DNA of 48,488 nt from Deltaproteobacteria bacterium (GTDB taxonomy: Bacteria; Desulfobacterota; WTBG01; CAIYCZ01; CAIRTM01). The stretch covers positions 1 through 48,488 of the forward strand of contig VGSH01000010.1 of the NCBI GenBank assembly GCA_016875025.1, in the 5' to 3' direction. Positions 16,915 to 39,297 of the stretch are shown in pieces. Position 1 is the stretch's first letter, and every line of letters starts with the position of its first letter. The position numbers and the translations under genes are program-made. The notes under the pieces are model-generated. The model was not told where the DNA came from. It saw only the letters and a list, made by a program, of their open reading frames with translations, and did not search any database.

Positions 16915-19900
16915 CTATTCCAGCCCCCCTTCAAGCGCAAGCATAATATCCCGCAGTTTTTCAAGCTGTTCACCGGTTGCCTGCCAGTAGCCCCGGCGGC
17001 TTGACTCAAGCAGCACCTCGGCCATGCGCTGGGTCGCATACGGGTTGTTGCGCTCAAGGCGCGTGCGCATGCTGTCGTCAAATATCAGGCGCTCGGCCGC
17101 TTTGTCAAACACCCAGGACTCAACCGCGTGCGTGGTGGCCGCTAGGCCGAGCAGATACTCCACGCGGTCTTTTACGATTTTTCCGCCGTGAAAGTCGTGC
17201 GCGAGCATGCCTTCCAGCCAGCGCGGGTTGAGCGTGCGCGTGCGGGCCGCACGCGCAACAACAGACGCAAGCTCCTCCACATCGGTGTCGTCTCCGGCCT
17301 GGTCAACCACCATGATATCCGCGCTTTCAGCCCCGCAGGTTGCGGCTGCGCGCGCCATGCCGCCCATGAATTCGAAGTAGTGGTCAAGGTCGGTAACATC
17401 ATATTCGCTGCCGTCGCGCTCCTGCGCGATCAGCGCGACGCTTCCCAGCATGCTTTTAAGAGCTTGAGGGTTTCTGCCGGAACTGCCGCCGGTATAGGCG
17501 TGACTCATCGCCGCGGTAAAGGCTTTCCCGAGCTCATCTTCTGAATGCCACGATCCGGTTTCAATCAGCGCGGGCAGATCGGTTGCGTACTGATCAGGGG
17601 CCGGGCCGAACAGGCGCAGGGGCATGTCCCCGTCGCAGGCATCCGGCCGGCTCTGGCAGTGGCTGCGGATATAATTATCCTCTGCAGCTTCGTTCTGCTC
17701 CGCAGCCAGCGCACAGGCGCGGCTGATCAGGTCAATATGCGTGCCGAACGTGTCACGAAATATCCCGCACATGGAAACAAGCACATCAATGCGCGGCCGG
17801 CCAAGTTCCGGCAGGGGTATGACCTCGAGGTCTTTGAGCCACGCACTGGCGCGGTGCCGGATGCGCACACCCAGCAGATGCAAAATCATGGCAATGGTGT
17901 CGCCACCGGTTTTCATGGTCTCAAAGCCCCATAAAATAATGCCGACTGTTGCGGGATAGGCGCTGTGTTTGGAATGGTAGGTGCTTAGCAGCTTTTCAGC
18001 AGCCCGCGCGCCGCGTGCCTGCGCTGTGGGTGTGGGAATCAGGCGCGGGTCAAAGGCGTACATGCCCCGGCCCGTGGGGTAGACGTCCGGGTCGCGCAGC
18101 GGGTCACCGGCCCGGGCCGGAAACACATAGCGTCCGTCAAGCGCCCTCAGAAGTCCTGCGCTCTCAGCGCTGAAATCAAAACGTTTCCGCAGGTCAGCGA
18201 CATATCGGCAATAGTCCGCATCGCACCACGCTGGCGGCTCGCCGTCAAGCATGGCGTCAAGGGCCTGTGCAGCAGCCGCGCGCACGCGCTCTTCTTCAGG
18301 CGTATGTTTAATTGCCTGCCACTCAAGCCCGAGTTCGCGCGCAGCCAGCGTAAAAATTGATGGCTGCTCGCGCTCAAACTGCAGAGCCCCGAGCACAAGA
18401 TCGCGTTTTTCAAAATCCGAACAGTGCTTATCCAGAACATGCAGGCCGTGCGGGATCAGGCGGCTTTTGATGCGGTAGAGCTCTCTTTGCAGGTCATGGG
18501 GTTCAAGCGGCAGATGCAATTCGCGCGCAACAGCCTGTATGGCTTCAAGCGTTTCAGCGTTCGGTTCACGTTCATACTGTGCAAGCAAATCCTCGAGCAG
18601 CAGATAGTCTTCATACAGGCCTGAGGCAGTCATCGGGGGAGAAGCATGCGATACGCACAGGGCATAGCTCCTGCGTTTGGCGATCGTAGCCTCGGATGGG
18701 TTGCCGACCCAGTAATAATAGATATTGGGCAGGCTGCCCAGCAGCATGTCCGGAAAACATTCGCCCGAGAGCGCGATTTCCTTGCCGGGCAGAAATTCGA
18801 GCGTGCCGTGCGTGCCGAAATGGAGAACTGCATCAGCAGCGAACTCCTGTTCAAGCCAGCAGTAAAAAGCCAGATACTGATGATGGGGAACTAACGCCTT
18901 GTCATGATAAAGGCTGGCGCTTTTTTCATGGTCCCCGCGCGCAGGCTGCACCCCGATAAAGATATTGCCCAGCACAGCGCCCGGCACGAGCAGGTCCGTT
19001 CCGTCAACCATCAGCGTGCCAGGCGGCAGCCCCCAGGCATCAATGACCTGCTGCTGCACGCTCTCCGGCAAAGTACGGAACCACTCTTCATAGCGCGCCA
19101 GCGGCATCCGGAGGCCGCCGGGTTGCTGATACACAGGCGAGTTGATAATGCCGTGTGAGAGAAAAAAATCCTTCAGGCCGGTTTCAGGGATGTCAACCAC
19201 ATAACCGTGCGCGCGCAGGCGCTCAAGCATTCGCTCAAGGCTCACAAACACATCCAGATAGCCGGCCCCGGCAAGGCTGTGCTCGCCGGGGGGGTAGCTG
19301 TAGCAAAGCAGGGCAATTTTTTTCTGTTGAGCCGGCTTTGCGCGCAGGGCCAGCCATTTTAAAATGCGTCCGGCAAAGCGCTCAACGCGCTCAGGGATTG
19401 CTGCCTGGCGCTTGACGCATCCGATTGCGCCATCATCAACGACTTCCAAAGCACCCAGCATGAACGGCTCAACAGCGCCGTCGAGTTCCGGCAGGGTTAC
19501 GGCCAGCACGGTTTCAATCGGGCTGAGCCCGGTACTGCCTGCGCGCCAGGCGTCAAGATCGGTTTCAAAGGCGCGCAGGCCAACCAGCAGCGGCACATCG
19601 CACTCGCGCAAAAACTGATATATCACGTCCGGGTCACCGCCGTAGGGCCCGCCCCAGAGGCGAAAGTACTGCATGGTGATCAGCAGGTCGATACCGTCGC
19701 AGCAGGCCCTGAGCGCTTCCATATTGGCTTCAACGCTTGAAAAAATATTCAGCACATTGGCATGCGAGCACAGGCGCTCATAGAGCAGGTCAATTATCGG
19801 CACGCTGTCGCTGAAATGCATGCCGCCGTGCATTAAGACAGCAACAGTCGGCCGCTGCGGGGCAAAGCCGCTTGCGCGTTCATATGCTGCGCGGTCCGTG

Positions 19901-20517
19901 AACGTTCCCTTACCCGGACAGTACAGGCCCCAGGCCGGCACGCTTCGGGGCTTTTCAATGCGTTTAATCTGCCCACAGCCGCCGTAGTATTTAAGAAGCG
20001 TGAGCAGCATATTGTAGAGATTATCAACGCCGCCCTGCGCGTAATACTCCTGCAGGAGCATCCAGCGGTTCATGTCGCGCACCATGCGCAGCGGCAGCAA
20101 GCTTGAGAGCTTTCTGCCGAGCGCGGAGAATTTTTTGACCCGGATATAATCGGTGATGGAAAAGGAGCGGTCCTGGCTGGGCTTGAACATCACGCTGCCA
20201 GAAAACGCGCCCATGTGCGTCAGGGCGAAGATGTCATTGCTCACGGCTATAAGCACAACCACGGTCTTGTTCTGCCCGGCAAGCAGAGCGGGCAGGCTGC
20301 GGCCCAGACGCGTATCCGAGCGCACATCAATCAGGATGATATCAGCGGCTGCCACCGCTTCGCGCACCGGCTCAAGGCTTGCACTGTGTGATTCGAAGTC
20401 GTTAAAATAGAATTTTTTAACGCTGCAAATATCGCCGTGAACTGCTTGAACGCGTACAGCGGCATCGTTGAGATCAGCGGAATTGTCCATGGCGCTCAGG
20501 GCCAGTATGCGTATCAC
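16915..20517 (-). CDS. cobN: CobN-type large subunit of a cobalt/magnesium chelatase family enzyme
   Basis: This is the large, porphyrin-binding subunit of the ATP-dependent class I chelatases (CobN/BchH), which insert Co or Mg (possibly Ni here) into a tetrapyrrole ring. The 1200-residue product carries the family signatures HFGTHGTLEFLPGKE near 570 and SKHSAYPATVGIILWGFETMKTGGD further on. It starts at a GTG inside a GTGA overlap with the VWA gene's stop, so translation is coupled and the operon encodes the complete three-component enzyme. CobN rather than BchH is favoured because there are no other bacteriochlorophyll genes. The metal is uncertain; a NikR gene lies just beyond the operon. 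Confidence 0.9.
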   Translation of the reverse strand: MIRILALSAMDNSADLNDAAVRVQAVHGDICSVKKFYFNDFESHSASLEPVREAVAAADIILIDVRSDTRLGRSLPALLAGQNKTVVVLIAVSNDIFALTHMGAFSGSVMFKPSQDRSFSITDYIRVKKFSALGRKLSSLLPLRMVRDMNRWMLLQEYYAQGGVDNLYNMLLTLLKYYGGCGQIKRIEKPRSVPAWGLYCPGKGTFTDRAAYERASGFAPQRPTVAVLMHGGMHFSDSVPIIDLLYERLCSHANVLNIFSSVEANMEALRACCDGIDLLITMQYFRLWGGPYGGDPDVIYQFLRECDVPLLVGLRAFETDLDAWRAGSTGLSPIETVLAVTLPELDGAVEPFMLGALEVVDDGAIGCVKRQAAIPERVERFAGRILKWLALRAKPAQQKKIALLCYSYPPGEHSLAGAGYLDVFVSLERMLERLRAHGYVVDIPETGLKDFFLSHGIINSPVYQQPGGLRMPLARYEEWFRTLPESVQQQVIDAWGLPPGTLMVDGTDLLVPGAVLGNIFIGVQPARGDHEKSASLYHDKALVPHHQYLAFYCWLEQEFAADAVLHFGTHGTLEFLPGKEIALSGECFPDMLLGSLPNIYYYWVGNPSEATIAKRRSYALCVSHASPPMTASGLYEDYLLLEDLLAQYEREPNAETLEAIQAVARELHLPLEPHDLQRELYRIKSRLIPHGLHVLDKHCSDFEKRDLVLGALQFEREQPSIFTLAARELGLEWQAIKHTPEEERVRAAAAQALDAMLDGEPPAWCDADYCRYVADLRKRFDFSAESAGLLRALDGRYVFPARAGDPLRDPDVYPTGRGMYAFDPRLIPTPTAQARGARAAEKLLSTYHSKHSAYPATVGIILWGFETMKTGGDTIAMILHLLGVRIRHRASAWLKDLEVIPLPELGRPRIDVLVSMCGIFRDTFGTHIDLISRACALAAEQNEAAEDNYIRSHCQSRPDACDGDMPLRLFGPAPDQYATDLPALIETGSWHSEDELGKAFTAAMSHAYTGGSSGRNPQALKSMLGSVALIAQERDGSEYDVTDLDHYFEFMGGMARAAATCGAESADIMVVDQAGDDTDVEELASVVARAARTRTLNPRWLEGMLAHDFHGGKIVKDRVEYLLGLAATTHAVESWVFDKAAERLIFDDSMRTRLERNNPYATQRMAEVLLESSRRGYWQATGEQLEKLRDIMLALEGGLE

Positions 20518-21218
20518 AGCAGGTCCTCGAGATAATAATGGTCAGCGCTCATCATTGCAGCCAGCTCTTCCAGAAAGCCCAGGCTTCGGGCACAGTGCTC
20601 CGTCGTAACAAAAATCAGCTGCGCATGCAGCTGCTGCGCTGCCAGCAGGCGCATATCTCCTGCAAGCGAGCCGGTGTGGAAAACATTGGGCCGTCCGTCC
20701 GAGATCACAACGATTGTCACGGCTGCGCTGCGCTCTTTTTCCCCAAGCTCAAAAGCCTGCAGCATAGCAGCTGTGAGCGGGGTTTTGCCGCCGGTGGGGA
20801 TGGCGTCCAGAGCCCCGTCAACAGCGCTGTGGTCGCGCGTGGGCTCTACAACCACCTCAGCGCTGCTGCCGCGAAAGCAGATCAGGGCAACCCGGTTTTT
20901 CTTTTCATAGGAGTGCTGCAAAAACTGCCAGGCGAGCGTTTTTGCCAGGCGCACCCTGCGGTCCATGCGCATGGAAGACGATGCGTCGAGCGCAAGTATG
21001 CAGAGCCCCTCGGCCCGGCCCTGTTTGATTTTTTCCATGAGATGGCCGGGCTGAATGGCAAGCGAGCCGCTTTCGCGCACAGCCCGGCGGATGGTGGCGT
21101 CAAGGGCAACTGATCGGGGCGTCTCACACGGGCGAGAACTGATATAGCGGCCGCGCGATGTGTCGCGTACCGGCGCTTCACGGCCCCGGGAGGGACGCGC
21201 AACCGGGGGCGTCAGGAT
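20514..21218 (-). CDS. chlD: VWA-domain part of the chelatase medium subunit (ChlD/CobT-like), reached by -1 frameshift
   Basis: This frame encodes the C-terminal half of a ChlD/BchD-type subunit. First comes the conserved linker signature [25 protein letters not shown], then a von Willebrand A domain with the MIDAS motif DASSSM, a downstream GGKTPLT threonine and ISDGRPN. There is no ATG, GTG or TTG between the frame's upstream TGA and the GTG at 21080, and that GTG lies after the conserved RGRY linker. The segment therefore appears to be translated only by shifting from the upstream ATPase frame at the A10 run. The joined product (20514-22303) would be 596 residues: AAA+ domain, short linker, VWA domain. 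The stop overlaps the cobN start. Confidence 0.85.
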
Positions 21219-22303
21219 TTTTTTTTTACGTCCCCGCTGCGCTCAAACGGTTCCGGCTGTTCGTGTTCAATCTGCTGATCAAGGGCGCTTTCGATCTGCT
21301 GCCGGTCAAGTGGCCGGTCTTTTTCAAATGGTTTCTGGCGCAGGCGGTGCGGCAGGGCCAGCAGGGCCGCATCGATAACGTCCTGGCGCTCAAGGGTTGT
21401 CCGGCCGGCAAGCGCGGCAATGGCGGCAGCGGTTTTCTCCATCACGATATCGGCCCGGTGGGTGCGGATGCCGAGGCTTGCGGTAATCGTAACGATCTGC
21501 TCAAGCATCTCGGCGCTTTCTTGGACATCACCAAGCAATCCCTGGGCAGCGGTAATCTCTTGCATTAGTTTTTCCTGCTGGTCGGCGAAGCGTTCCTCAA
21601 ACGTCCAGCAGTCGCGGTCGAACTCTTTTCTGCGCTTTATCACCTCCAGCCGGTCAGCCGGGTCGGTCAGCGCGCCGACTTCAACGCACAGACCGAAGCG
21701 GTCAAGTATCTGCGGCCGCAGCCGTCCCTCTTCCGGGTTCATGGTGCCGACCAGGATAAAGCGCGCCGGATGATAGAGCGAGATGCCTTCGCGCTCGATA
21801 ACATTGACGCCCATGGCGGCTGCATCAAGCAGAATGTTGATCAGGTGGTCATCCAGCAGGTTGACTTCGTCGATGTAGAGAATATTGCGGTTGGCGCGGG
21901 CCAGGATGCCGGGCTCAAGGGCCTTGATGCCATCGGTGAGCGCCCGCTTGATATCAAGCGAGCCGATTACCATGTCCTCGGTGGCTGACAGCGGCATATC
22001 AACAATGTCCATGGCCTTTTCAACCCAGGGCAGGATGGCCTCGCGCTCGAAGCGCTGCTGGCAGGCCTTGCACATCAGGCGCATATTTTCCGGGTCGCAA
22101 TTAAATGGACAGCCTTCAACAACGCGCAGGCGCGGCAGCGTGTGGGCCAGGGCGCGCACGGCGGTGGATTTTCCGGTGCCTTTGTCGCCGGTGATGATCA
22201 CGCCGCCGACCGTGGGGTCGATTGCGTTGATCAGCAGGGCCTTTTTGAGCAGGTCCTGACCGACAATCGCCGACAGGGGGAAAATAACGAATTTATGATG
22301 CAT
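21212..22303 (-). CDS. chlI: AAA+ ATPase small subunit of the chelatase (ChlI/BchI-like); 0-frame product
   Basis: This AAA+ motor drives metal insertion. From the ATG at 22303 it is 363 residues with Walker [10 protein letters not shown] at 39-47, Walker [13 protein letters not shown] near 141-152, sensor [19 protein letters not shown] near 187 and an arginine-rich C-terminal helical domain. A cysteine group (C65, C69, C78, C81) resembles that of CobN-associated ATPases. A TTG at 22342 would extend it, but the 22303 ATG is preferred. Translation ends at a TGA four bases after a run of ten A's; a -1 slip there continues into the VWA frame. Normal termination would give the small subunit, shifting the medium subunit. 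Confidence 0.92.
21218..21227 (-). promoter_or_regulatory. A10 slippery site for probable -1 frameshifting
   Basis: On the coding strand the 0 frame reads GTA AAA AAA AAA TCC TGA. Re-reading one A gives AAA ATC CTG ACG and the open VWA frame. Nine bases beyond the run, CCCCGG and CCGGGG can pair across a 13-base loop, a spacing typical of stimulatory hairpins. A GGGGA segment just upstream could act as an internal Shine-Dalgarno stimulator. Transcriptional slippage on the A-run (insertion of one A) would have the same result. A sequencing error in the homopolymer is the alternative. Confidence 0.7.
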
Positions 22304-22318
22304 GGCAGTGCGCTCTCT

Positions 22319-22370
22319 ATGATGCTGTTTGGCAGGGAACAACCATAGCGCAGCATCATTGATATGTCAA
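22319..22370 (-). promoter_or_regulatory. Sigma-70-type promoter with 9-bp inverted repeat upstream of the chelatase operon
   Basis: On the minus strand TTGACA (22370-22365) and TATGGT (22347-22342) are 17 bp apart. A perfect inverted repeat, ATGATGCTG at 22319-22327 and CAGCATCAT at 22351-22359, places one arm between -35 and -10 and the other just after the expected start of transcription. This arrangement suits a repressor operator. NikR, encoded immediately beyond, is a candidate, but the sequence is not the E. coli NikR box. No cobalamin-riboswitch motif was seen. Confidence 0.6.
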
Positions 22371-22460
22371 ATATTTAAAATCGTGCTACCGTTAACGCCA
22401 TCAAACGTCTCGGTGCAACATAAGCATCAGGCGAGCGTCAGACCACACCTGACCCAGGGA

Positions 22461-22542
22461 GTGTCACCCCGGACACTGGATCCGGAACCCATGAAAAAAC
22501 CCTGGATTAAGGCTATCCGCTGCGCTCCTGCCGGAATGACAC
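22461..22542. repeat. Short palindromic repeat
   Basis: An imperfect inverted repeat runs from GTGTCACCCCGG to CCGGAATGACAC, enclosing an ACTGGATCCGG...CCCTGGATT region. Its ends and inner CCTGGATT/GCCGGAATGAC words match the interrupted repeat near 15770-15930. It occupies much of the 22343-22677 spacer, which otherwise holds only the divergent promoters of the chelatase operon and nikR. Confidence 0.55.
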
Positions 22543-22612
22543 ACCCATGTCCTGCCGCACGCGATCCGGCATCCATCTCTGCTACCCATTGAGATTGACC
22601 GGGCCGTCTTTA

Positions 22613-22641
22613 TTGACATTCCGGGAAATCGTTGCTATTTT
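22613..22641 (+). promoter_or_regulatory. Predicted sigma-70-type promoter of nikR
   Basis: TTGACA at 22613-22618 and TATTTT at 22636-22641 are separated by 17 bp. They lie 37 bp before the nikR ATG, which has an AGAGAGG ribosome-binding site. Confidence 0.6.
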
Positions 22642-22677
22642 TAAAAAAATTGTGCACGCCAAAGAGAGGTTGCTTCC

Positions 22678-23094
22678 ATGTCCACGTTAATCCGTTTCGG
22701 CATATCGCTTGACAAGACCCTTCTTGAATCATTTGACTCCCTGATCAGCGACCGCGGCTACACCAACCGGTCCGAGGCCCTGCGTGATCTTATCCGCGAT
22801 GAACTGGTGCGGCGCGAATGGCTCTCAGGCGACGTCGTAGCCGGCACCATTACGCTGGTCTACGATCATCATACCCGCGAGCTTAATGCACGCCTGACCG
22901 AAATCCAGCACAATCATCACAATGTTATTATCGCCACGCAGCACATTCATCTCGACCACCATAATTGCCTTGAGGTTATCGTGGTGCAGGGAACCCCCAA
23001 GGATATCGAAAAGCTGGCTTCACGGTTGAAGGCCGCCCGCGGTGTCAAGCACAGCAGCCTGACCATGGCCACCACGGGGAAAAACCTGCTGTAG
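22678..23094 (+). CDS. nikR: Nickel-responsive transcriptional regulator NikR
   Basis: The 138-residue protein has an N-terminal ribbon-helix-helix DNA-binding domain (STLIRFGISLDKTLLESFDS, then TNRSEALRDLIRDEL) and a C-terminal ACT-like nickel-sensing domain. The high-affinity Ni ligands of E. coli NikR (H76, H87, H89, C95) correspond to H78, H89, H91 and C97 (QHIHLDHHNC). It is transcribed divergently from the CobN/ChlID operon across a 375-bp spacer, which raises the possibility that Ni levels control the chelatase. No nickel transporter gene is in the window. Confidence 0.95.
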   Translation: MSTLIRFGISLDKTLLESFDSLISDRGYTNRSEALRDLIRDELVRREWLSGDVVAGTITLVYDHHTRELNARLTEIQHNHHNVIIATQHIHLDHHNCLEVIVVQGTPKDIEKLASRLKAARGVKHSSLTMATTGKNLL

Positions 23095-29846: not shown

Positions 29847-30446
29847 ATGTCGGATAGATGTATGAAGATCAAAGACACAAGAAAAGAAAACATTTTTTCA
29901 GCAGCCCTGCAATGCTTTATCGAAAAGGGCTACGCTGAATCAAGCATCAGCATGATCGCCTCACGGGCGGGAATCAGCAAAGGAGGTCTGTACCACTATT
30001 TTCCAACGAAGCGGGAACTGTTTCTCGGGCTGTTTCTCTACCGCGTAAATCAATATTCCGAGCAGCTGAGAGACCAGCTGCACAATGAAAAAAGTCCGGA
30101 TAAACGCCTTAAAATGCTGGTGCGCGAGGCCGGCAGCCTGCTGGTGCATAATGAAGCTTTTTACCGGTTCTGCCTTGAGTTTCTCTCAATCGGCGTGCGC
30201 GATGCGGAAATACGTTCCGTTATGACGGATTTTTATAAAGAAACGGTGGGAATTTTTGCCCACATTGTCAACGAGGGCATCGACACCGGCTTATTTCAGC
30301 CGATCGACTCAAAAAAACTGGCCCGCATGCTCTACTTCACCGTGATGGGCGCATTTTTCACCTTTTTTTCAGTTGACCCGGATTTTACCTTTTCAGAGCA
30401 GTTCTCATTTCAGATTAATTTTATGCTGAAAGCATTGCAAGGCTGA
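29847..30446 (+). CDS. TetR-family transcriptional regulator of the tetrapyrrole-like cluster
   Basis: The 199-residue regulator has an N-terminal helix-turn-helix (SSISMIASRAGISKGGLYHYFPTKRELF, residues 31-58) and a helical C-terminal ligand domain. It is the first gene of the 30-40 kb cluster, and a stretch of 75 bp separates it from the heme/flavin fusion gene. Matching CCGG palindromes before both genes suggest it represses itself and the cluster. The ligand would probably be a substrate or intermediate of the pathway; this is inference. Confidence 0.9.
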   Translation: MSDRCMKIKDTRKENIFSAALQCFIEKGYAESSISMIASRAGISKGGLYHYFPTKRELFLGLFLYRVNQYSEQLRDQLHNEKSPDKRLKMLVREAGSLLVHNEAFYRFCLEFLSIGVRDAEIRSVMTDFYKETVGIFAHIVNEGIDTGLFQPIDSKKLARMLYFTVMGAFFTFFSVDPDFTFSEQFSFQINFMLKALQG

Positions 30447-30521: not shown

Positions 30522-31346
30522 ATGCACAAGAAAAAGACAGTTTCAATGGTATTCATGGCAGCGCTTCTGGTCAGCCTGGGCCTTGCCGACATTTCAACAG
30601 CGCAAAAGGCAGACTCCCTCGACAAAAAAGCCGAAGAGATTGCTGCTGCCGCAGCTGTAACCTCTAATCATCCCGAGATCCCGGAGGGCGTCTCCTGCAA
30701 CGACTGCCATACCATGACGATCGACGCCAATACCACGGCCACCCAGGTATGGCTGGGCGGTGAGTACCTCGGCAAGGCCGAGGGCGAAGGCCGCATGAGC
30801 GATGAGCAGCTCTGGGCGGAAATCAACAAGCTTCTCGGCGGCGGCAAGGCAGGCACCAAAACCTATGTTCTGGCAACCAGCATGAACAACCGGCCCCTTT
30901 CCACAACGGCCGAGTGGACCTTTGATCCCGGCAGAAGAATGCTGTACGGGGTTCATGAGATGAACACGGAAAAACTTGCCCATATCAAGGCCAATCCCTT
31001 TGTAAGCCTGAACTGGCACGACGAGTATGCAGGCATTGATGGCCCCTATCGCTGCTGCCAGATCAAAGGGCGCTGCGAACTGCTTGACGGCCAGCATCCG
31101 GATTTTGAAAAGATACTGATCGAGTTCGCACCCTACGAGGATGCGGCCACGCGTATGATGCCGCAAAACCCAACGCCTGAGCAGCGCGAGGAAGTGCTCA
31201 CGCGGGTGCGCGAGACGTTTAAAAAGCGCTTTCTCATGAGCCGCATCACCATCGACCGGATCACCATCGTCAACAAGGATTTCATCTCGAAGGGCTTCAG
31301 GAATGTCCAGCGCTGGGAGCGCGCTAACACCGGCGAAAAACCATAA
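30522..31346 (+). CDS. Exported c-type heme protein fused to a flavin split-barrel (PNPOx-like) domain
   Basis: The 274-residue protein has a signal peptide (positively charged start, hydrophobic core 8-22, AQ-type cleavage near 28). A single CxxCH heme-attachment motif, CNDCH, is at 59-63. A pyridoxamine-5'-phosphate-oxidase-like split-barrel domain follows from about 85 (YVLATSMNNRPLSTTAEWTFDPGRRMLYGVHEMN, then ANPFVSLNWHD). This points to a periplasmic redox protein with covalent heme and perhaps a flavin or tetrapyrrole in the barrel. HugZ-type heme-degrading proteins share the split-barrel fold. A GGAG ribosome-binding site precedes the ATG. The fusion is uncommon and I know of no defined function. 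Confidence 0.8.
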   Translation: MHKKKTVSMVFMAALLVSLGLADISTAQKADSLDKKAEEIAAAAAVTSNHPEIPEGVSCNDCHTMTIDANTTATQVWLGGEYLGKAEGEGRMSDEQLWAEINKLLGGGKAGTKTYVLATSMNNRPLSTTAEWTFDPGRRMLYGVHEMNTEKLAHIKANPFVSLNWHDEYAGIDGPYRCCQIKGRCELLDGQHPDFEKILIEFAPYEDAATRMMPQNPTPEQREEVLTRVRETFKKRFLMSRITIDRITIVNKDFISKGFRNVQRWERANTGEKP

Positions 31347-31406: not shown

Positions 31407-32210
31407 ATGAAGACAGTTGTTGTGACCGGCAGTTCAAAAGGCATAGGCCTGGGCCTTGCCAATGAGTTTTTAAAAAAAGGCTGCAATGTCGTTCTCAGCA
31501 GTTTCGCAAAAGATGAAATGATGCATGAATATGAGAAGGCCTGCGCCATCTATGGGAAAAAACGCGTGGCCGCGCAGGCCTGCGATGTCAGCAGTCTTGG
31601 TCAGCTCAGGCAGCTCTGGGAGACCGCGCAGAGCGCGTTTGGCCAAGTCGATATCTGGATGAACAATGCCGGCATCGCAAATACCACACGGCCCATCTGG
31701 GAGCTGGAAACACGTGAAATCCCGCGCGTAGTCAGCACCAACCTGACCGGCGTCATCTACGGAACGCAGGTCGCGCTGCAGGGCATGCTCAAGCAGGGCA
31801 GCGGCCAGATATACAACTCGGAAGGCTTCGGCAGCGACGACATGGTGCTGAGGGGCCTGAGCGTCTACGGTGCTACCAAGCGGGCCGGCCGCTATTTGAC
31901 CGAGTCAATGGCAGCAGAGCTGGAAGGCACGCCGGTACAGATCGGGACAATCAGCCCTGGAATCGTATTAACGGATTTTCTTGTGGACGACGTGCGTAAA
32001 ATGGCCCCTGAGCAGCGCGAACAGGCCAAGGCCGTCTACAATATCCTGGCAGACAGCGTTGAGGAGGTCACGCCGTGGCTGGTGGAGGAAGTGTTGAAAA
32101 ACACCGAAAACGGAAAACGAATTATCTGGCTCAACGAAGAGCGGACAAACCGGTACATGAATGACGAGGCCCGCCTGGGTCGCGATGTCTTCAGCCAGTT
32201 TGGCCTCTAA
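31407..32210 (+). CDS. Short-chain dehydrogenase/reductase 1, NYC1/NOL-like
   Basis: This classical SDR of 267 residues has the nucleotide motif TGSSKGIG near residue 7, NNAG near 86 and catalytic YGATK near 151. In place of the usual NxSS the active-site strand reads IYNSEGFGSDD. An N-x-(D/E)-G-x-GS pattern at this position is characteristic of chlorophyll b reductases NYC1 and NOL, which reduce a formyl group on a tetrapyrrole. The start is the ATG at 31407 behind an AGAGGGAG site. It is tandem with a paralogue of identical length 23 bp downstream. NAD(P)H-dependent carbonyl or alcohol chemistry is secure; the substrate is not. Confidence 0.85.
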   Translation: MKTVVVTGSSKGIGLGLANEFLKKGCNVVLSSFAKDEMMHEYEKACAIYGKKRVAAQACDVSSLGQLRQLWETAQSAFGQVDIWMNNAGIANTTRPIWELETREIPRVVSTNLTGVIYGTQVALQGMLKQGSGQIYNSEGFGSDDMVLRGLSVYGATKRAGRYLTESMAAELEGTPVQIGTISPGIVLTDFLVDDVRKMAPEQREQAKAVYNILADSVEEVTPWLVEEVLKNTENGKRIIWLNEERTNRYMNDEARLGRDVFSQFGL

Positions 32211-32233: not shown

Positions 32234-33037
32234 ATGATATCTGCCGTCATAACCGGAAGCACAAAAGGCATCGGGCTCGGCCTGGCACAGGAGCTGCTCA
32301 AGCGCGGCTGTGCCGTGGCGATCAGCTCGCGTTCACGCAACAGCGTTGACACAACCGTTGAAGTCCTCGGCAAGGAGTTCGGAGCGGACAAGGTTATCGG
32401 CCGCACCTGTGACGTGACCGACCCCGCGCAGGTACAGGCGCTCTGGGATGCGGCCGCCGGGGCCTTCGGAAAAGTTGACATCTGGATCAATAATGCGGGC
32501 ATATCCCTTTCAAAAATCCTGCTCCGGGATCTGCCTCCAGAGCTGATAGCCCCGGTAGTAAACACAAATATGGTCGGCCTGATGTATGGATGCCAGGTCG
32601 CAGCGTGCGGCATGCTCAAGCAGGGCAGCGGCAGCATTTTTAATCTTGAAGGCCATGGCAGCAATGACATGCTCGTGCCCGGCCTGAGCATTTACGGCGC
32701 TACCAAGCGCGGCGTGCGCTATTTTACCGAAGCGCTCGCAGAAGAGTTGAAAACCACGCCGGTAAAAATCGGGGGCATGGGACCGGGCATCGTCATAACC
32801 GATCTGGTCCTGGAAGACCTGCGGCGCATGAGTCCGGATGATCGCGAACAGTCCAAAATCCTCATCAACATTCTGGCCGACACGGTCGACACCGTGGCTC
32901 CATTCCTGGTTGATGAGATGCTCAAGGAACCTGAAAACGGCGCAAGCATCCAGTGGATAACATCGGAGAAGGCCAATGCCCGCTTTGAGGATCCGGTCTA
33001 CCTTGAGCGCGACCTGCTGAGCAGTCACGGGATATAA
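32234..33037 (+). CDS. Short-chain dehydrogenase/reductase 2, NYC1/NOL-like
   Basis: The 267-residue SDR is a clear tandem paralogue of the previous gene: TGSTKGIG, NNAG, IFNLEGHGSND in the active-site strand and YGATKRGVRYFTEALAEEL with the Tyr/Lys pair. Both retain the N-x-E-G-x-GS pattern. An AGGAG ribosome-binding site precedes the ATG. Two copies may reduce two positions, work in sequence or form a heterodimer. Gene order suggests co-transcription with the whole cluster. Confidence 0.85.
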   Translation: MISAVITGSTKGIGLGLAQELLKRGCAVAISSRSRNSVDTTVEVLGKEFGADKVIGRTCDVTDPAQVQALWDAAAGAFGKVDIWINNAGISLSKILLRDLPPELIAPVVNTNMVGLMYGCQVAACGMLKQGSGSIFNLEGHGSNDMLVPGLSIYGATKRGVRYFTEALAEELKTTPVKIGGMGPGIVITDLVLEDLRRMSPDDREQSKILINILADTVDTVAPFLVDEMLKEPENGASIQWITSEKANARFEDPVYLERDLLSSHGI

Positions 33038-33103: not shown

Positions 33104-33727
33104 ATGTACATTATTGGTTTTTCAGGCAGTCCCCGCCTGAACGGAATTTGTAGCCGTCTTATGCAGTCGGCTCTCGACGGCGCCCTGCAGCAGGGCGCGG
33201 ACGTGAAGCGCTACGACCTGATCAAGCTGGACATCAAGCATTGCCTTGGCTGCTGCCAGTGTATCTTTGACGATCCGCAACTGCCGGTCGGCCGCTGCCC
33301 GCTCAAGGATGACATGGCCGCCGTGCTGGAAGATTACATGCTCGCCGACGGCTATATTTTTGCGTGCCCGGTTTACCACGGCACAGTAACGGCATTGATG
33401 AAAAAATTCATCGAACGAAAGTTCGGCCTGTCCTGGCGTGCACCCGAGGCGGCGGGAAAGCTGCCCGAGTCCCGCGTGCCGGCGGATTTCAAAAAAAAGG
33501 CCATTATGATCGCTACCGGCAACTCGCCTGATGAATTCGTGGAAGTCATGGGTGATCCCTGCTTCGAGGTGATGAGTTCGGACTGGATGGTGGAGCAGGT
33601 TGAAACCGTGGGGAAAATGTATGTCGGCGGTGTGGAGACCCTGTCCCCGACCGATACCGAGGATCGTTTGAAAAAATCCTTTGATGCCGGTAGCCACCTG
33701 GTGGAGGCCATCCGAAAAGACCTTTAG
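33104..33727 (+). CDS. NAD(P)H-dependent FMN reductase / flavodoxin-fold protein
   Basis: The 207-residue flavodoxin-like protein has the FMN-phosphate loop GFSGSPRLNGICSRL near residue 4 and the CLGCCQCIFDD...GRCPLKDDM cysteine segment typical of the FMN-reductase/iron-sulfur-flavoprotein branch. ACPVYHGTVTALMKKFIER near 85 is also typical. Four cysteines (C-x2-C-x2-C, then C ten residues on) could hold an Fe-S cluster as in Isf proteins, but this is not assured. The start is ATG 33104 after CGGAG; an upstream extension from 33056 is rejected. It could supply electrons or reduced flavin to the other cluster enzymes. It is not UbiX. Confidence 0.82.
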   Translation: MYIIGFSGSPRLNGICSRLMQSALDGALQQGADVKRYDLIKLDIKHCLGCCQCIFDDPQLPVGRCPLKDDMAAVLEDYMLADGYIFACPVYHGTVTALMKKFIERKFGLSWRAPEAAGKLPESRVPADFKKKAIMIATGNSPDEFVEVMGDPCFEVMSSDWMVEQVETVGKMYVGGVETLSPTDTEDRLKKSFDAGSHLVEAIRKDL

Positions 33728-33813: not shown

Positions 33814-34383
33814 ATGGCCTATGTGACCCTGCCTAAAGTAACACCGCAGCAGAAAATACTTTTCGAACGTTTCGGCCTCCCGTTGATTGAAACCATGGAG
33901 GTTGACCACTTTGAACGTGAAGTTGCGAACTATCTCGATGCGCACAATGTTTTGAGCCTTTCGACCTGCCGCGACAACACGCCGCGCTGCACCACGCTGG
34001 AATATTTCAACAACGGGCTCACTGTGTATCTGTTCTCGGAAGGCGGGTGGAAGATCACCAACCTGAAGGCCAATCCCGCGGTGTCCTTCACTATCCACGA
34101 CCCCTATGATTCGGGAACGGATTATTTCGGCGCTTCGGGCCTGCAGGTCTGGGGCAGGGCCTCCCTTTTCAAACGCAAGGACGACCCGGAGCAGGCGGCC
34201 CTGATCCAGTCATACTATCGCCACTCGGAAGGGCTGAAGCGCCAGGGCCTGTATGAGGCCATCCAGGCGCTCAACTTTAATGTCATCACGATCGAGCCGG
34301 TTAAAATCTCCTATCTTGATCTGCGCAAGGGATTCCGCAGTTTTGTCTGGAAAAAAGATGCCTCTGCTGAGGACGAAGCATGA
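33814..34383 (+). CDS. Flavin split-barrel (PNPOx-like) protein 2
   Basis: The 189-residue cytoplasmic protein has the split-barrel pattern: EVANYLDAHNVLSLSTCRDNTPRCTTLEYFNNGLTVYLFSEGG, then KITNLKANPAVSFTIHDPYDS and GLQVWGRASLF. The same order occurs in FMN-binding and heme- or F420-binding family members; the cofactor cannot be read off. Start ATG 33814 follows GGAGAAG. Its stop overlaps the UbiD start (ATGA), so the two are translationally coupled and may work together. It is related to the product of the gene at 38740. Confidence 0.78.
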   Translation: MAYVTLPKVTPQQKILFERFGLPLIETMEVDHFEREVANYLDAHNVLSLSTCRDNTPRCTTLEYFNNGLTVYLFSEGGWKITNLKANPAVSFTIHDPYDSGTDYFGASGLQVWGRASLFKRKDDPEQAALIQSYYRHSEGLKRQGLYEAIQALNFNVITIEPVKISYLDLRKGFRSFVWKKDASAEDEA

Positions 34384-35876
34384 CCACGAAGAAAAAAAAT
34401 AAATTCCCCTTTGACTCTCTGAGAGACTATGCCGCAGCGCTCAAGGAGCAAGGCCGTTTTATTGAAATCGAGGAGATGGACCAGGACCGCTATGAGATGA
34501 CGGCGTTTTCCTACCGGCTGGAAGACCGCTTGCAGGACACCGCGCCGGCGTTTCTGGTCAGAAGGACAAAAATCAACGGCCGGACCTATGACATGCCGGT
34601 GGTCGGCAATCTTTTCAACGGTTTCGGTTCCGTTGCCCAATGTTTCGGTGCTCCGTTGGATGAGATGACTGAGAGCCGCTCCGAGATGCACGCCCTGGCT
34701 TCCCGCAAGATTCTAAACTGCCTCGGGGATGATTTCCGCTGGAAAACAATCGAGCCCGTTGTTATCGATAAAGCCCAGGCCGCCTGCAAGCAAGTTATTT
34801 ACACGGGGGAGGATGTTGATATTTTCCGTTTCCCCTGGATAAAAAACAATCCCGCGGATGGGGGCAGGTTCGTCAGTTCCGGCTGCGCGGTAATGCAGGA
34901 CCCGGAACTCGGCCGCAATGTGGGCACGTACCGCCTGCATGTCAAGGGGCCCCGGAAGGTCGGCATCTGCCTGACACAGCCCAGTCACGGGTTCCAGTTC
35001 GTTATGCGGGCGGCCGAGCGCGGCCTGGAACGTATCCCGGTGTCGGTTGCCGTGGGCGTCGATCCCCTGACCTTCATGATGAGCGGCACCCGGCTGGCCG
35101 ATCTCGGTGAGGACGAATTCGCCATTGCCGGTGGATTTCGCGGCAAGCCGGTTGAACTGGTAAAGAGCGAGACCAGCGACATTCTGGTCCCCGCCCATGC
35201 AGAGATCATCATTGAGGGAGAAATTCCCATTATGGAGGCCGAGGAAGACGGTCCTTACGGCGAGCTGTTCGGCTATATCGGTCACAAGCACCAGGCCTTT
35301 TATATCGATATCAAGGCTATCACCTGCAGGACCAGCCCCTGGGTCTACAATATATGGCCCGGCATCGGCGGAGCCTATTTGACCCTGCCCTGGGACGTTT
35401 CACATTTTGCGCGGTTGAAAAAAATAATGCGCAACCTCGTCAAGCTGTATACGCCCGTTGAAACGCCCTCCATAGTCATAATCAGCATTGATAAAAAACT
35501 TCCGGGCGAGGGCATCGAGGCCGGTATGATGGTTCTGGGCTACCGCATGGTGGGGTTCAGTAAAAAAATCGTTATCGTGGTTGACCGCGACATTGACCCG
35601 ACCGATACGGCGCGCGTAATGCATGCGGTCGGCACGCGCTGGCAGCCCCATCCGGCAAGTCTGCTGGTGAAGCAGTCGATCCATATTCCGGTCGAACCAA
35701 GCTGCCGCGAAATGTTTTTGAGCAGCAAGATCGTAATAGATGCCACCCGTCAGCTTTCCTCCGAAGGAGGGCCGAACATGTTCCCGCTCGACAACCGCAC
35801 GGTTGTCGAGGAGCGCGCCCCGGAAGCCTTCGAGATCGTTGACAGCAAATGGGCTGAATATTTCAATGACAAATGA
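34380..35876 (+). CDS. UbiD-family prenylated-FMN-dependent decarboxylase
   Basis: UbiD enzymes reversibly decarboxylate aromatic or alpha,beta-unsaturated acids using prenylated FMN from UbiX. The 498-residue product has the cofactor/substrate segment GRNVGTYRLHV with N180 and R185, and EEDGPYGELFGY near 288-299, in which E295 matches the catalytic Glu282 of fungal Fdc1. The position of Fdc1 Glu277 is Asp290 here. It overlaps the upstream split-barrel gene by 4 bp. No ubiX is in the window. In this setting it could remove a carboxyl from a tetrapyrrole side chain or from an aromatic acid; this is inference. Confidence 0.92.
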   Translation: MTTKKKNKFPFDSLRDYAAALKEQGRFIEIEEMDQDRYEMTAFSYRLEDRLQDTAPAFLVRRTKINGRTYDMPVVGNLFNGFGSVAQCFGAPLDEMTESRSEMHALASRKILNCLGDDFRWKTIEPVVIDKAQAACKQVIYTGEDVDIFRFPWIKNNPADGGRFVSSGCAVMQDPELGRNVGTYRLHVKGPRKVGICLTQPSHGFQFVMRAAERGLERIPVSVAVGVDPLTFMMSGTRLADLGEDEFAIAGGFRGKPVELVKSETSDILVPAHAEIIIEGEIPIMEAEEDGPYGELFGYIGHKHQAFYIDIKAITCRTSPWVYNIWPGIGGAYLTLPWDVSHFARLKKIMRNLVKLYTPVETPSIVIISIDKKLPGEGIEAGMMVLGYRMVGFSKKIVIVVDRDIDPTDTARVMHAVGTRWQPHPASLLVKQSIHIPVEPSCREMFLSSKIVIDATRQLSSEGGPNMFPLDNRTVVEERAPEAFEIVDSKWAEYFNDK

Positions 35877-35921: not shown

Positions 35922-36731
35922 ATGTTTATAACAATACTGAAGTATGCATTTTTGGCCCTGCTGGGCATCGTGGTGCTTGCCGTGCTCGTGGCGGTGCCGT
36001 TTCTCATCAAAGCCCGCAAGGAAGGCGACCGCCTGTTCGCCCGCTATGCCTCCTATACCGACACCGAGCTGGTTCAGCGCTTTGATATGCGCGATTTTCC
36101 GGTTAAGCCGGAGTACAAAAAACTCCATCCTGCCAAGTTCCTCAAGATGATGAAATATGTGGTGTCAAGCCGGCAAGCCGATCGCCTCGCGCGGGTGAAC
36201 TCCCTTGACGTGACCATGTTGTACTTTATGAAAATGTACACAATGATGATCCGGCCCGACTACGGCTACAACCTGCCGGTTCTATCAGTCGATTTCATCT
36301 TCATCGGCGGTATGCGTGTCTATGTTATCGAGATCATCGACCCTGCCAAAATCGACGACCCAAACAAGGAACGCTGCTATAGTGAGGTGAAAAAATGGGC
36401 GGACCGGGTAGCGCAGTTCAAGCAGTCCAAAGTAAGTGAATGGTTTTACGATTTCATCACTGATTCCAGCATCCACATTTCCACGAACCGCACGGATGAC
36501 GAAGTGCTTTTTGAAATATACAAAACATATCTCAACAGCTATCTCAATATGGTCGAACGGGCTGAAAAAGTGACCCCGGAGCAGAGCAGGCAGCTGGAAG
36601 AGGGCCTTGAACTGTTTGTCACGACCCTGCTTGATAAAGGCGGGCCCGCGGTTAATGTCTTCAAGACCTTTCTGGGTCCCGAAAAGCAGCGCGATTATAT
36701 TCGGACCGTTATGTTCGGCCTTGAGAAGTAG
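35922..36731 (+). CDS. Membrane-anchored protein resembling ferredoxin-dependent bilin reductases (PcyA/HY2 family)
   Basis: The 269-residue product has one N-terminal membrane helix (about 5-28). The rest follows the bilin-reductase pattern as I recall it from PcyA. PDYGYNLPVLSVDFIF (112-127) aligns with the PLYGLPLFGCD stretch, so D124 matches catalytic Asp105, and VYVIEIIDPA matches the following strand. SEWFYDFITDSSIHI then TDDEVLF aligns with the W-x-x-IFS...FIRP...EERF segment, and FKTFLGPEKQRDYIRTVMFGL (247-267) matches the C-terminal FG-x-x-W...Y-x-x-x-LFD signature. A counterpart of PcyA His88 is not evident. A membrane anchor is unusual for the family. GGGAGG precedes the ATG. Confidence 0.65.
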   Translation: MFITILKYAFLALLGIVVLAVLVAVPFLIKARKEGDRLFARYASYTDTELVQRFDMRDFPVKPEYKKLHPAKFLKMMKYVVSSRQADRLARVNSLDVTMLYFMKMYTMMIRPDYGYNLPVLSVDFIFIGGMRVYVIEIIDPAKIDDPNKERCYSEVKKWADRVAQFKQSKVSEWFYDFITDSSIHISTNRTDDEVLFEIYKTYLNSYLNMVERAEKVTPEQSRQLEEGLELFVTTLLDKGGPAVNVFKTFLGPEKQRDYIRTVMFGLEK

Positions 36732-36778: not shown

Positions 36779-37525
36779 ATGAACGTAAAAAACGATTTTT
36801 CATTCCCCCCGCCCGGGCAGCTGGACACCATCAGGGCCTTTTATGCCGCAATAAACGGCAATGACTCTTTTGATCCGAAAACAGAGCAGGCATCGGGCGT
36901 ATGGAGCGCTGAAGTGCACTGCTCGCGCGGGCCAATACTTGAAAAGGCAGGCATGGCCATGGTGGAAATGTGCGGCGGATCGGTTGATGGCGCTTCGGCC
37001 GACATCAGGCTTCTGCAAACCCTTGCCTGGCCTGTATCAGCTGACGTGCCGGGTCTTATCATCATGGCCAGTACAAGCAAAATGGAAGGGGGCGATGTCA
37101 TCATTACGTTTTATGCGGACCTGATCGCCCAGAACGCCGCAGCAGCAGAAAGTGACAAAGAGCCCTTTACCACTGCCATGCGAACTTCGTGTGAAAGACA
37201 CGGCCGGGACCTGGCCGAGTATCAGGCTTTTTTAACAGGCCGGGGAATGCTTGGCGCCTGCGCCGCTGAGTGCGGCATGCTGTATTTTTTCGAGGAAAGC
37301 GATGCTGCGTTTTTGGATGATTGCATCAAAGCCGCGCTGCAGGCCTACCGCCTTATTCTCGACAGTGCCGGTTCCCGGGCCGGGGGAGACAAAGGCCGCA
37401 TGGCTGAATGCCGCGCAACTATCAGGGACTGGATGGTCACTCAGGACTACGGTGTCAAGGTGGCGCGCCAGAACGGCATACCTGATGAGCTTATGGGAAT
37501 TTACGGATTTCCTCCCGGGGTCTAA
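36779..37525 (+). CDS. Divergent HemF-like protein (coproporphyrinogen III oxidase fold), catalytic residues not conserved
   Basis: The 248-residue protein resembles oxygen-dependent coproporphyrinogen oxidase. GPILEKAGMAMVEMCGG (51-67) parallels the GGVFEQAGVNFSHVHG segment of E. coli HemF. RTSCERHGRDLAEYQAF (135-151) parallels its ARDLCLPFGEDVYPRYK. ECGMLYFFEESDAAFLDDC (164-182) parallels RGIGGLFFDDL...FDRC. The HPHNP histidine is replaced (MASTSK, 96-101) and the RRGRYVEFNL stretch is not kept, so it probably does not perform the O2-dependent HemF reaction. It may bind a tetrapyrrole for another purpose. An AGGAG site precedes the ATG. Confidence 0.6.
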   Translation: MNVKNDFSFPPPGQLDTIRAFYAAINGNDSFDPKTEQASGVWSAEVHCSRGPILEKAGMAMVEMCGGSVDGASADIRLLQTLAWPVSADVPGLIIMASTSKMEGGDVIITFYADLIAQNAAAAESDKEPFTTAMRTSCERHGRDLAEYQAFLTGRGMLGACAAECGMLYFFEESDAAFLDDCIKAALQAYRLILDSAGSRAGGDKGRMAECRATIRDWMVTQDYGVKVARQNGIPDELMGIYGFPPGV

Positions 37526-38739: not shown

Positions 38740-39297
38740 ATGGCCATGCATGAATTAACTGATGCTGAACGTGAAAAGATGCTGGGCGAGCTCTTCCGCC
38801 TGCTCAAGATAACCCGGTGGCACCCGGACCGCGCAGAGCTCGAGCGGGAAATAATCGACTATCTCGCCAAGAACCAGCCCTTAACGCTTGCCACCTGCAC
38901 CGCGGACGGCAACCCGCACGTTTCCGTGGTGGACTATGTCAATGACGGGCTCGATCTGTATATTTTCAGCGAAGGCGGCCAGAAATTTAAAAACCTCGCC
39001 CATAATAAAAATGTCGCGGTCGGGATCGGCACTTCGGCCCGCACGATCACCTCGGTGCGCGGCCTCAACCTCTGGGGCACAGCCGATGTGTTTAATGACG
39101 GCACGGCCGAGTTCAAGCGGGCATTTGCCCTGTTTAAGCCCCTGCTTGATGATTTCGAGCAGAAGACCGGGATGCCGGCCTCGTTCCCGCCGGGCATGGC
39201 GCGCATCATCCGGATCACGCCGCACCGGATGGTTTATTTTCACTACCGCAAAGGAATTGCCCATGCCTGCTGGGATCGGGAAGAGCAAGGCGCCTGA
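38740..39297 (+). CDS. Flavin split-barrel (PNPOx-like) protein 3
   Basis: The 185-residue protein has LEREIIDYLAKNQPLTLATCTADGNPHVSVVDYVNDGLDLYIFSEGG, then KFKNLAHNKNVAVGIGTS and GLNLWGTADVF, the same order as the product at 33814, to which it is paralogous. Start ATG 38740 has an excellent GAGGGAGG site; the longer frame from 38650 runs through the terminator hairpin and is rejected. It lies after the terminator, so it probably has its own promoter or depends on read-through. The C terminus RMVYFHYRKGIAHACWD parallels LDLRKGFRSFVWKKD of the other copy. Confidence 0.8.
   Translation: MAMHELTDAEREKMLGELFRLLKITRWHPDRAELEREIIDYLAKNQPLTLATCTADGNPHVSVVDYVNDGLDLYIFSEGGQKFKNLAHNKNVAVGIGTSARTITSVRGLNLWGTADVFNDGTAEFKRAFALFKPLLDDFEQKTGMPASFPPGMARIIRITPHRMVYFHYRKGIAHACWDREEQGA

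Follow-up and report, generated by a model that had tools for sequence, protein, structure and literature searches.

A membrane-anchored relative of ferredoxin-dependent bilin reductases in a probably anaerobic member of the Thermodesulfobacteriota

The protein encoded at positions 35922 to 36731 of contig VGSH01000010.1, here called P0001, almost certainly belongs to the family of ferredoxin-dependent bilin reductases (FDBRs). Plants and cyanobacteria reduce bile pigments with such enzymes, which are known for making light-harvesting and light-sensing pigments downstream of an O2-dependent heme oxygenase. The host of P0001, however, is an oxygen-shunning lake-sediment bacterium without a known route of bile-pigment synthesis. 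P0001 is part of a lineage-specific radiation of FDBR genes, and its position beside a relative of coproporphyrinogen III oxidase (CPOX), a heme-making enzyme with the FDBR fold, suggests an unrecognized anaerobic chemistry. P0001 is likely a reductase driven by flavodoxin or ferredoxin.

RESULTS

Identification of P0001 as an FDBR-family protein

The window, meaning the whole stretch of 48,488 nucleotides that was analyzed, contains P0001 within a run of genes on the forward strand, as follows.

29847-30446, + strand: regulator of the TetR family, probably controlling the cluster
30522-31346, + strand: exported split-barrel protein with a CxxCH heme c motif; PNPOx_N match just under the Pfam cut-off
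31407-32210, + strand: short-chain dehydrogenase (SDR)
32234-33037, + strand: short-chain dehydrogenase, so assigned from its sequence likeness to that at 31407-32210
33104-33727, + strand: FMN_red-family flavoprotein; similar genes adjoin P0002 orthologues in loci L110 and L111
33814-34383, + strand: split-barrel flavin- or F420-type oxidoreductase (PNPOx-like)
34380-35876, + strand: UbiD-family (prFMN) decarboxylase, 45 bp upstream of P0001
35922-36731, + strand: P0001, membrane-anchored FDBR-family protein of 269 amino acids (269 codons); transmembrane helix at residues 8-29, FDBR domain at about 34-269; T107 corresponds to PcyA H88 and D124 to PcyA D105, and GG240-241 replaces the C-terminal Asp motif
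36779-37525, + strand: P0002, divergent protein of the CPOX/HemF superfamily, 248 amino acids, 47 bp downstream of P0001
37589-38614, + strand: Flavodoxin_5-domain protein with a C-terminal extension of about 190 amino acids, candidate electron donor
38740-39297, + strand: split-barrel flavoprotein; similar genes lie beside P0002 homologues in L110 and L111
39541-40023, + strand: split-barrel flavoprotein (Pyridox_ox_2)

The ATG start of P0001 has a strong Shine-Dalgarno sequence, AAAGGGAGGCGAC, just 5' of it. A sequence-only reading had proposed the FDBR relationship from two motifs, YGYNLPVLSVD and FKTFLGPEKQRDYIRTVMFG, both of which were found in the P0001 translation, and the proposal was borne out by a significant profile match and a predicted alpha/beta/alpha sandwich. 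The Pfam model PF05996 (Fe_bilin_red) matched residues 51 to 265 over profile positions 9 to 227 of 228, with an E value of 8.6e-15 and a score of 55.4 bits (cut-off, 31). The NCBIfam models for PebB (1.3e-11) and PebA (2.4e-10) also matched, far under their equivalog cut-offs. A phmmer search of PDB sequences with P0001 found Guillardia PebB (1.6e-7), and a profile built from 14 P0001 orthologues (A1) matched the known FDBRs PebB (4.1e-14), PcyA (4.6e-10), PebA (1.3e-6), and HY2 (1.7e-4). The PF05996 match, together with these matches to PDB FDBRs, indicates that the likeness is real and not due to chance. A first scan of genome contigs with P0001 alone as the query gave no match.

The AF2 model of P0001, predicted from 12 sequences, had a pLDDT of 91.3 and a pTM of 0.86 and showed a long N-terminal helix followed by the FDBR sandwich. 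When this model was compared with known structures by Foldseek and VIA-align, the top matches were PebB, PcyA, HY2, PebA, RCCR, and PebS. The predicted structure aligned with PcyA at a Z score of 25.7 and an rmsd of 2.4 Å over 230 residues, with PebB at Z 25.1, and with red chlorophyll catabolite reductase (RCCR), a plant enzyme that shares the fold at about 10% identity and has no such membrane helix, at Z 21.7. CPOX came next at Z 17.6, and unrelated folds gave Z scores of 4.8 or less.

Active-site residues and membrane anchor

Residue equivalences were taken from alignments to Nostoc PcyA and cyanobacterial PebA and PebB. As had been read from the sequence, D124 aligns with Asp105 of PcyA and no equivalent of His88 is present, that position being Thr107; both residues are invariant in 14 of 14 orthologues. 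The position of PcyA Glu76 is Leu95, such that both PcyA hallmarks, Glu76 and His88, are missing, and PebA and PebB have Asn at position 88 where P0001 has Thr107. With Glu76 and the Asp of the C-terminal DPA motif missing, P0001 is not a PcyA, though the DPA motif itself is no FDBR-wide feature, as it is missing from PcyA also. The DPA of PebA and PebB is GGPA in the membrane-anchored clade, and DPG is mostly kept in the soluble paralogues of the class that were inspected. With Gly-Gly in place of the DPA Asp, the activity of P0001 may be lost or changed.

According to a 2023 study, the heterotroph pre-PcyA enzymes of the pre-3 group have Asp105 with Thr at position 88, and one of them turns biliverdin into phytochromobilin and phycoerythrobilin (PMC10151467). 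P0001 fits the pre-3 residue pattern in having Asp105 and Thr at position 88 and in lacking Glu76.

The predicted N-terminal membrane helix was confirmed at residues 8 to 29 (mean KD, 2.8), and such a helix is found in all 14 orthologues. By the positive-inside rule, the charges of P0001 are ambiguous as to topology. The neighboring flavodoxin has, by eye, an apparent export signal in those relatives with a complete N terminus and none in the window copy, and given this difference the FDBR domain may face either periplasm or cytoplasm. Apparent export signals were seen on flavodoxin-like proteins encoded by the flavodoxin genes of loci L052 to L058 and L062 and at L051:4050-8040; exported proteins of this kind would be flavodoxins in the periplasm.

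Gene neighborhoods of P0001 and its relatives

The genes that recur around the membrane-anchored FDBR in relatives encode a geranylgeranyl-reductase (GGR)-like flavoprotein and a flavodoxin, and the flavodoxin gene adjoins the FDBR gene in the window and in most relatives. To these, the window cluster adds the TetR regulator, two SDRs, the FMN_red protein, the UbiD protein, and four split-barrel proteins, one of them exported and bearing the heme c motif. This heme c split-barrel protein is of the flavin type and is kept in four other loci, with CxxCH before the barrel in each (L053:4984-5796; L065:4512-5318; L110:2995-3807; L114:12575-13372). In several relatives, genes for an RND transporter, a DUF1329 protein, and a YCF48/COG4447 protein adjoin the GGR-flavodoxin-FDBR genes, and this set for transport of hydrophobic compounds is likewise found beside the GGR-FDBR pair of another copy (L065) in the host genome. 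A comparable set of transport genes works in monoterpene metabolism in Castellaniella (PMC6394551).

Elsewhere in the window, at 16915-23094, genes for a CobN/BchH-type chelatase, a BchI-like AAA subunit, and a NikR-like protein lie in a row. A role of the CobN and BchI genes in the system was rejected, since they lie far from P0001 on the opposite strand and cobalamin synthesis would account for them.

Radiation of FDBR genes in the class

Nine genes of the host genome, which is 100% complete at 3.25 Mb, match PF05996, one of them with an in-frame stop. Within the Thermodesulfobacteriota class, 13 of 17 genomes carry 6 to 17 such genes each, 145 in total, and outside that group a sample of 297 genomes of the phylum yielded one genome with one match, below the cut-off. 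The named relatives are metagenome-assembled genomes labeled Thermodesulfobacteriota or 'Deltaproteobacteria', several of them from lakes. Searches of plasmid and phage collections found only cyanobacterial and cyanophage FDBRs and chance matches. The FDBR subfamilies of the class vary at positions 88 and 105, and the following genes represent part of their range.

L001, L002, L003, L005, L006, L007, L008, and L070:5859-6464: the eight further FDBR genes of the host genome, in several deep subfamilies; the copy on contig C78 has an in-frame TAA
L006:1102-2082, L064:9049-10032, L112:1729-2712, L120:2697-3674, L121:6135-7118, and L123:8847-9839: ferredoxin-FDBR fusions
L108:3668-4381, L118:6220-6939, and L119:2751-3470: PebA-like FDBRs of the class

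In an IQ-TREE phylogeny of canonical FDBRs and those of the class, in which the deep nodes are weaker, the membrane-anchored clade has a UFBoot of 99. Joined with a clade of soluble proteins as its closest relatives, it forms the sister group (UFBoot 99) of the canonical PcyA, PebA, and PebB together with their relatives from the class. One FDBR of the class shares 29% identity with cyanobacterial PebA (5e-19) and groups with PebA and PebB in the tree. Downstream of the PebA-like gene in L108 lie a ferredoxin-like gene, an AFOR-like gene, and then a CPOX-like gene.

One type of paralogue, represented by the L006 protein and its orthologues, carries a 2[4Fe-4S] ferredoxin domain, called from its CxxCxxCxxxCP motifs, as an N-terminal fusion. 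The fusion would be a self-sufficient, bilin-reductase-like architecture, and it supports electron input of the ferredoxin type in this group of FDBRs. The fusion genes often adjoin SDR, FAD_binding_4, and CCG Fe-S genes, or a tungsten AFOR gene. The FDBR copy of contig C11 has in its neighborhood, at L068:13662-14393, an archaeo-eukaryotic primase domain of a TOTE conflict system.

P0002 and the link between FDBR and CPOX

P0002 by itself had no match in Pfam, the CPOX family (Coprogen_oxidas) included, but its family profile (A2) matched CPOX structures in the PDB, 2aex at 4.4e-19 and 3ejo at 3.7e-18. Its C-terminal motif is DYG where PDB CPOX proteins have DRG (Asp-Arg-Gly), and no Pfam-level CPOX was found in the host genome; P0002 is thus not an ordinary HemF. 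A structure prediction for P0002 from a two-row alignment was uninformative, with a pLDDT of 39. FDBR and CPOX-like genes also lie near each other in L107, where they are adjacent, and in L108 and L109. Genes of the superfamily further occur as tandem or nearby pairs in L112, L114, L115, L120, L123, L091, L093, and L050. The gene at L050:2381-3115 (minus strand) has no Pfam match, scores between FDBR and CPOX, and sits on a long branch between the two families.

CPOX is known to have the FDBR fold with no significant sequence similarity (PMC10151467). An iterative HMM search merged the two families, and since profile drift is possible in such a search, the relation was assessed by hhalign with controls, the sets being assigned to FDBR or CPOX from the first tree. 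The alignment of 70 FDBR-like against 20 CPOX-like sequences of the class gave an E value of 4e-10 at a probability of 96.7 over 207 columns, versus 0.13 or more for column-shuffled controls, 0.41 for a reversed one, and 0.016 or more for eleven unrelated families. Canonical FDBRs matched the class FDBRs at 5.7e-35 and the CPOX-like set at just 0.0054, such that the link shows only with the class sequences. The alignment of membrane-anchored FDBRs matched that of P0002 directly only weakly (E value, 0.0045), significance being reached only with the full class sets.

Anaerobic host and bilin sources

Among 16 genomes of the class, none had a match to heme oxygenase (PF01126), to the phycobiliproteins and BBAG (PF00502), to HugZ-type DUF2470, or to cytochrome bd. 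COX1 was found in only two class genomes, both of them FDBR-free. The host had been thought a probable anaerobe, and this is supported by its 100%-complete genome, in which neither COX1 nor cytochrome bd was matched. Two other routes were considered. The radical-SAM model for the anaerobilin route (HutW/ChuW) matched every genome and every control, with none in the class above the curated cut-off, and HugZ-type heme degradation by the split-barrel neighbors was ruled out on the lack of DUF2470. With no known bilin-forming enzyme present, reduction of biliverdin by P0001 is less likely.

DISCUSSION

P0001 is like PcyA, PebA, PebB, PebS, and HY2 (PF05996) in sequence profile, fold, and the central Asp105 equivalent, but differs from the canonical enzymes in its N-terminal membrane helix, Thr at position 88, the lack of Glu76, GGPA in place of DPA, the adjoining flavodoxin gene, and the heme-oxygenase-free anaerobic host. 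It resembles the pre-PcyA enzymes (pre-1, pre-2, and pre-3) of heterotrophs in its nonphotosynthetic host, and pre-3 in particular in Asp105 and Thr88 without Glu76 (PMC10151467), but differs in its membrane helix and in the 6 to 17 paralogues per genome. Nor is the pre-3 gene cluster with a heme oxygenase and a phycobiliprotein-like globin matched, PF01126 and PF00502 being absent from 16 class genomes. CPOX/HemF has the same fold and a divergent member encoded by the next gene, and class sequences link the families, but CPOX/HemF is an O2-dependent oxidative decarboxylase and P0001 itself is no CPOX.

We give about even chances to P0001 being a membrane-tethered reductase, driven by flavodoxin or ferredoxin, of a hydrophobic conjugated substrate that is probably a tetrapyrrole not derived from heme oxygenase. 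To our knowledge, every characterized member of the superfamily (FDBR, RCCR, and CPOX) acts on tetrapyrroles, and this, with the CPOX-fold neighbor, makes such a tetrapyrrole the best single guess. P0001 would, like other FDBRs, carry no cofactor of its own. The conjugated substrate would bind between the sheet and the helices, electrons would arrive singly from the neighboring flavodoxin or a ferredoxin, and Asp124 and Thr107 would steer protonation, leading to reduction of a double bond. The helix would hold P0001 at the membrane, within reach of a hydrophobic substrate. The tetrapyrrole might, for example, be a pigment that is imported and derives from chlorophyll or heme. P0001 and its neighbors (the CPOX-fold protein, the split-barrel flavoproteins, the SDRs, and UbiD) would process it together, as one step of an anaerobic pathway.

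Against this, the UbiD, SDR, GGR-like, and terpene-type transport neighbors are about as consistent with a hydrophobic substrate that is no tetrapyrrole. The main rival, possible though clearly less probable, is that the FDBR scaffold has been reused and that P0001 reduces an isoprenoid, polyene, quinone, or aromatic compound in anaerobic catabolism. The genomes lack a bilin source and a bilin-binding globin, the number and diversity of FDBR paralogues in each would suit such reuse, and TetR is a further neighbor in keeping with it; the tetrapyrrole substrates of all characterized relatives, the retention of D105, and the adjoining CPOX-fold gene speak against it.

A further reading, which is improbable, makes P0001 a conventional pre-3-type biliverdin reductase that draws on an unrecognized bilin source. 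The split-barrel fold includes heme-degrading and biliverdin-reducing enzymes, and proteins of this fold are present in the cluster. The Asp105 and Thr88 pair also is as in pre-3 (PMC10151467), but no heme oxygenase, DUF2470/HugZ, HutW above the cut-off, or phycobiliprotein-like globin was found, and with no terminal oxidase found in the host genome, an O2-dependent opening of heme is unlikely. Slightly less probable still is a biosynthetic rather than catabolic step toward an unknown tetrapyrrole cofactor. The CPOX-like neighbor and the chelatase and BchI-like genes on the same contig (16915-22342) would agree with this, but the latter lie on the opposite strand at a distance of 13 kb and suit a role in cobalamin synthesis, and the genes around the FDBR copies look catabolic. 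That P0001 is a noncatalytic, membrane-bound protein for pigment binding or delivery, as the lost DPA Asp and the paired same-fold genes, suggestive of partner complexes, might indicate, is very unlikely given the invariance of D124 and T107 in 14 orthologues and the conserved flavodoxin neighbor.

Returning to a reductase of tetrapyrroles, we tentatively extend it to the lineage as a whole, in a reading that is doubtful. An anaerobic Thermodesulfobacteriota lineage may have radiated the FDBR/CPOX fold into a broad family of cofactor-free reductases driven by flavodoxin or ferredoxin, some soluble, some fused to ferredoxin, some membrane-anchored, and some paired. These would serve to degrade tetrapyrroles from the environment, or other hydrophobic pigments, under anaerobic conditions, and the lineage may preserve a sequence bridge between FDBR and the CPOX of heme synthesis.

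With the sequences of the class, FDBR and CPOX can be joined at the sequence level, whereas their relation was earlier visible only in structures (PMC10151467). The presence of 6 to 17 FDBRs per genome in anaerobes free of heme oxygenase, an argument of which the lack of a terminal oxidase in the host genome is part, implies a substantial role of the family beyond the synthesis of bilins. It bears on the origin of PcyA in heterotrophs, and it suggests where to look for anaerobic turnover of chlorophyll- and heme-type pigments.
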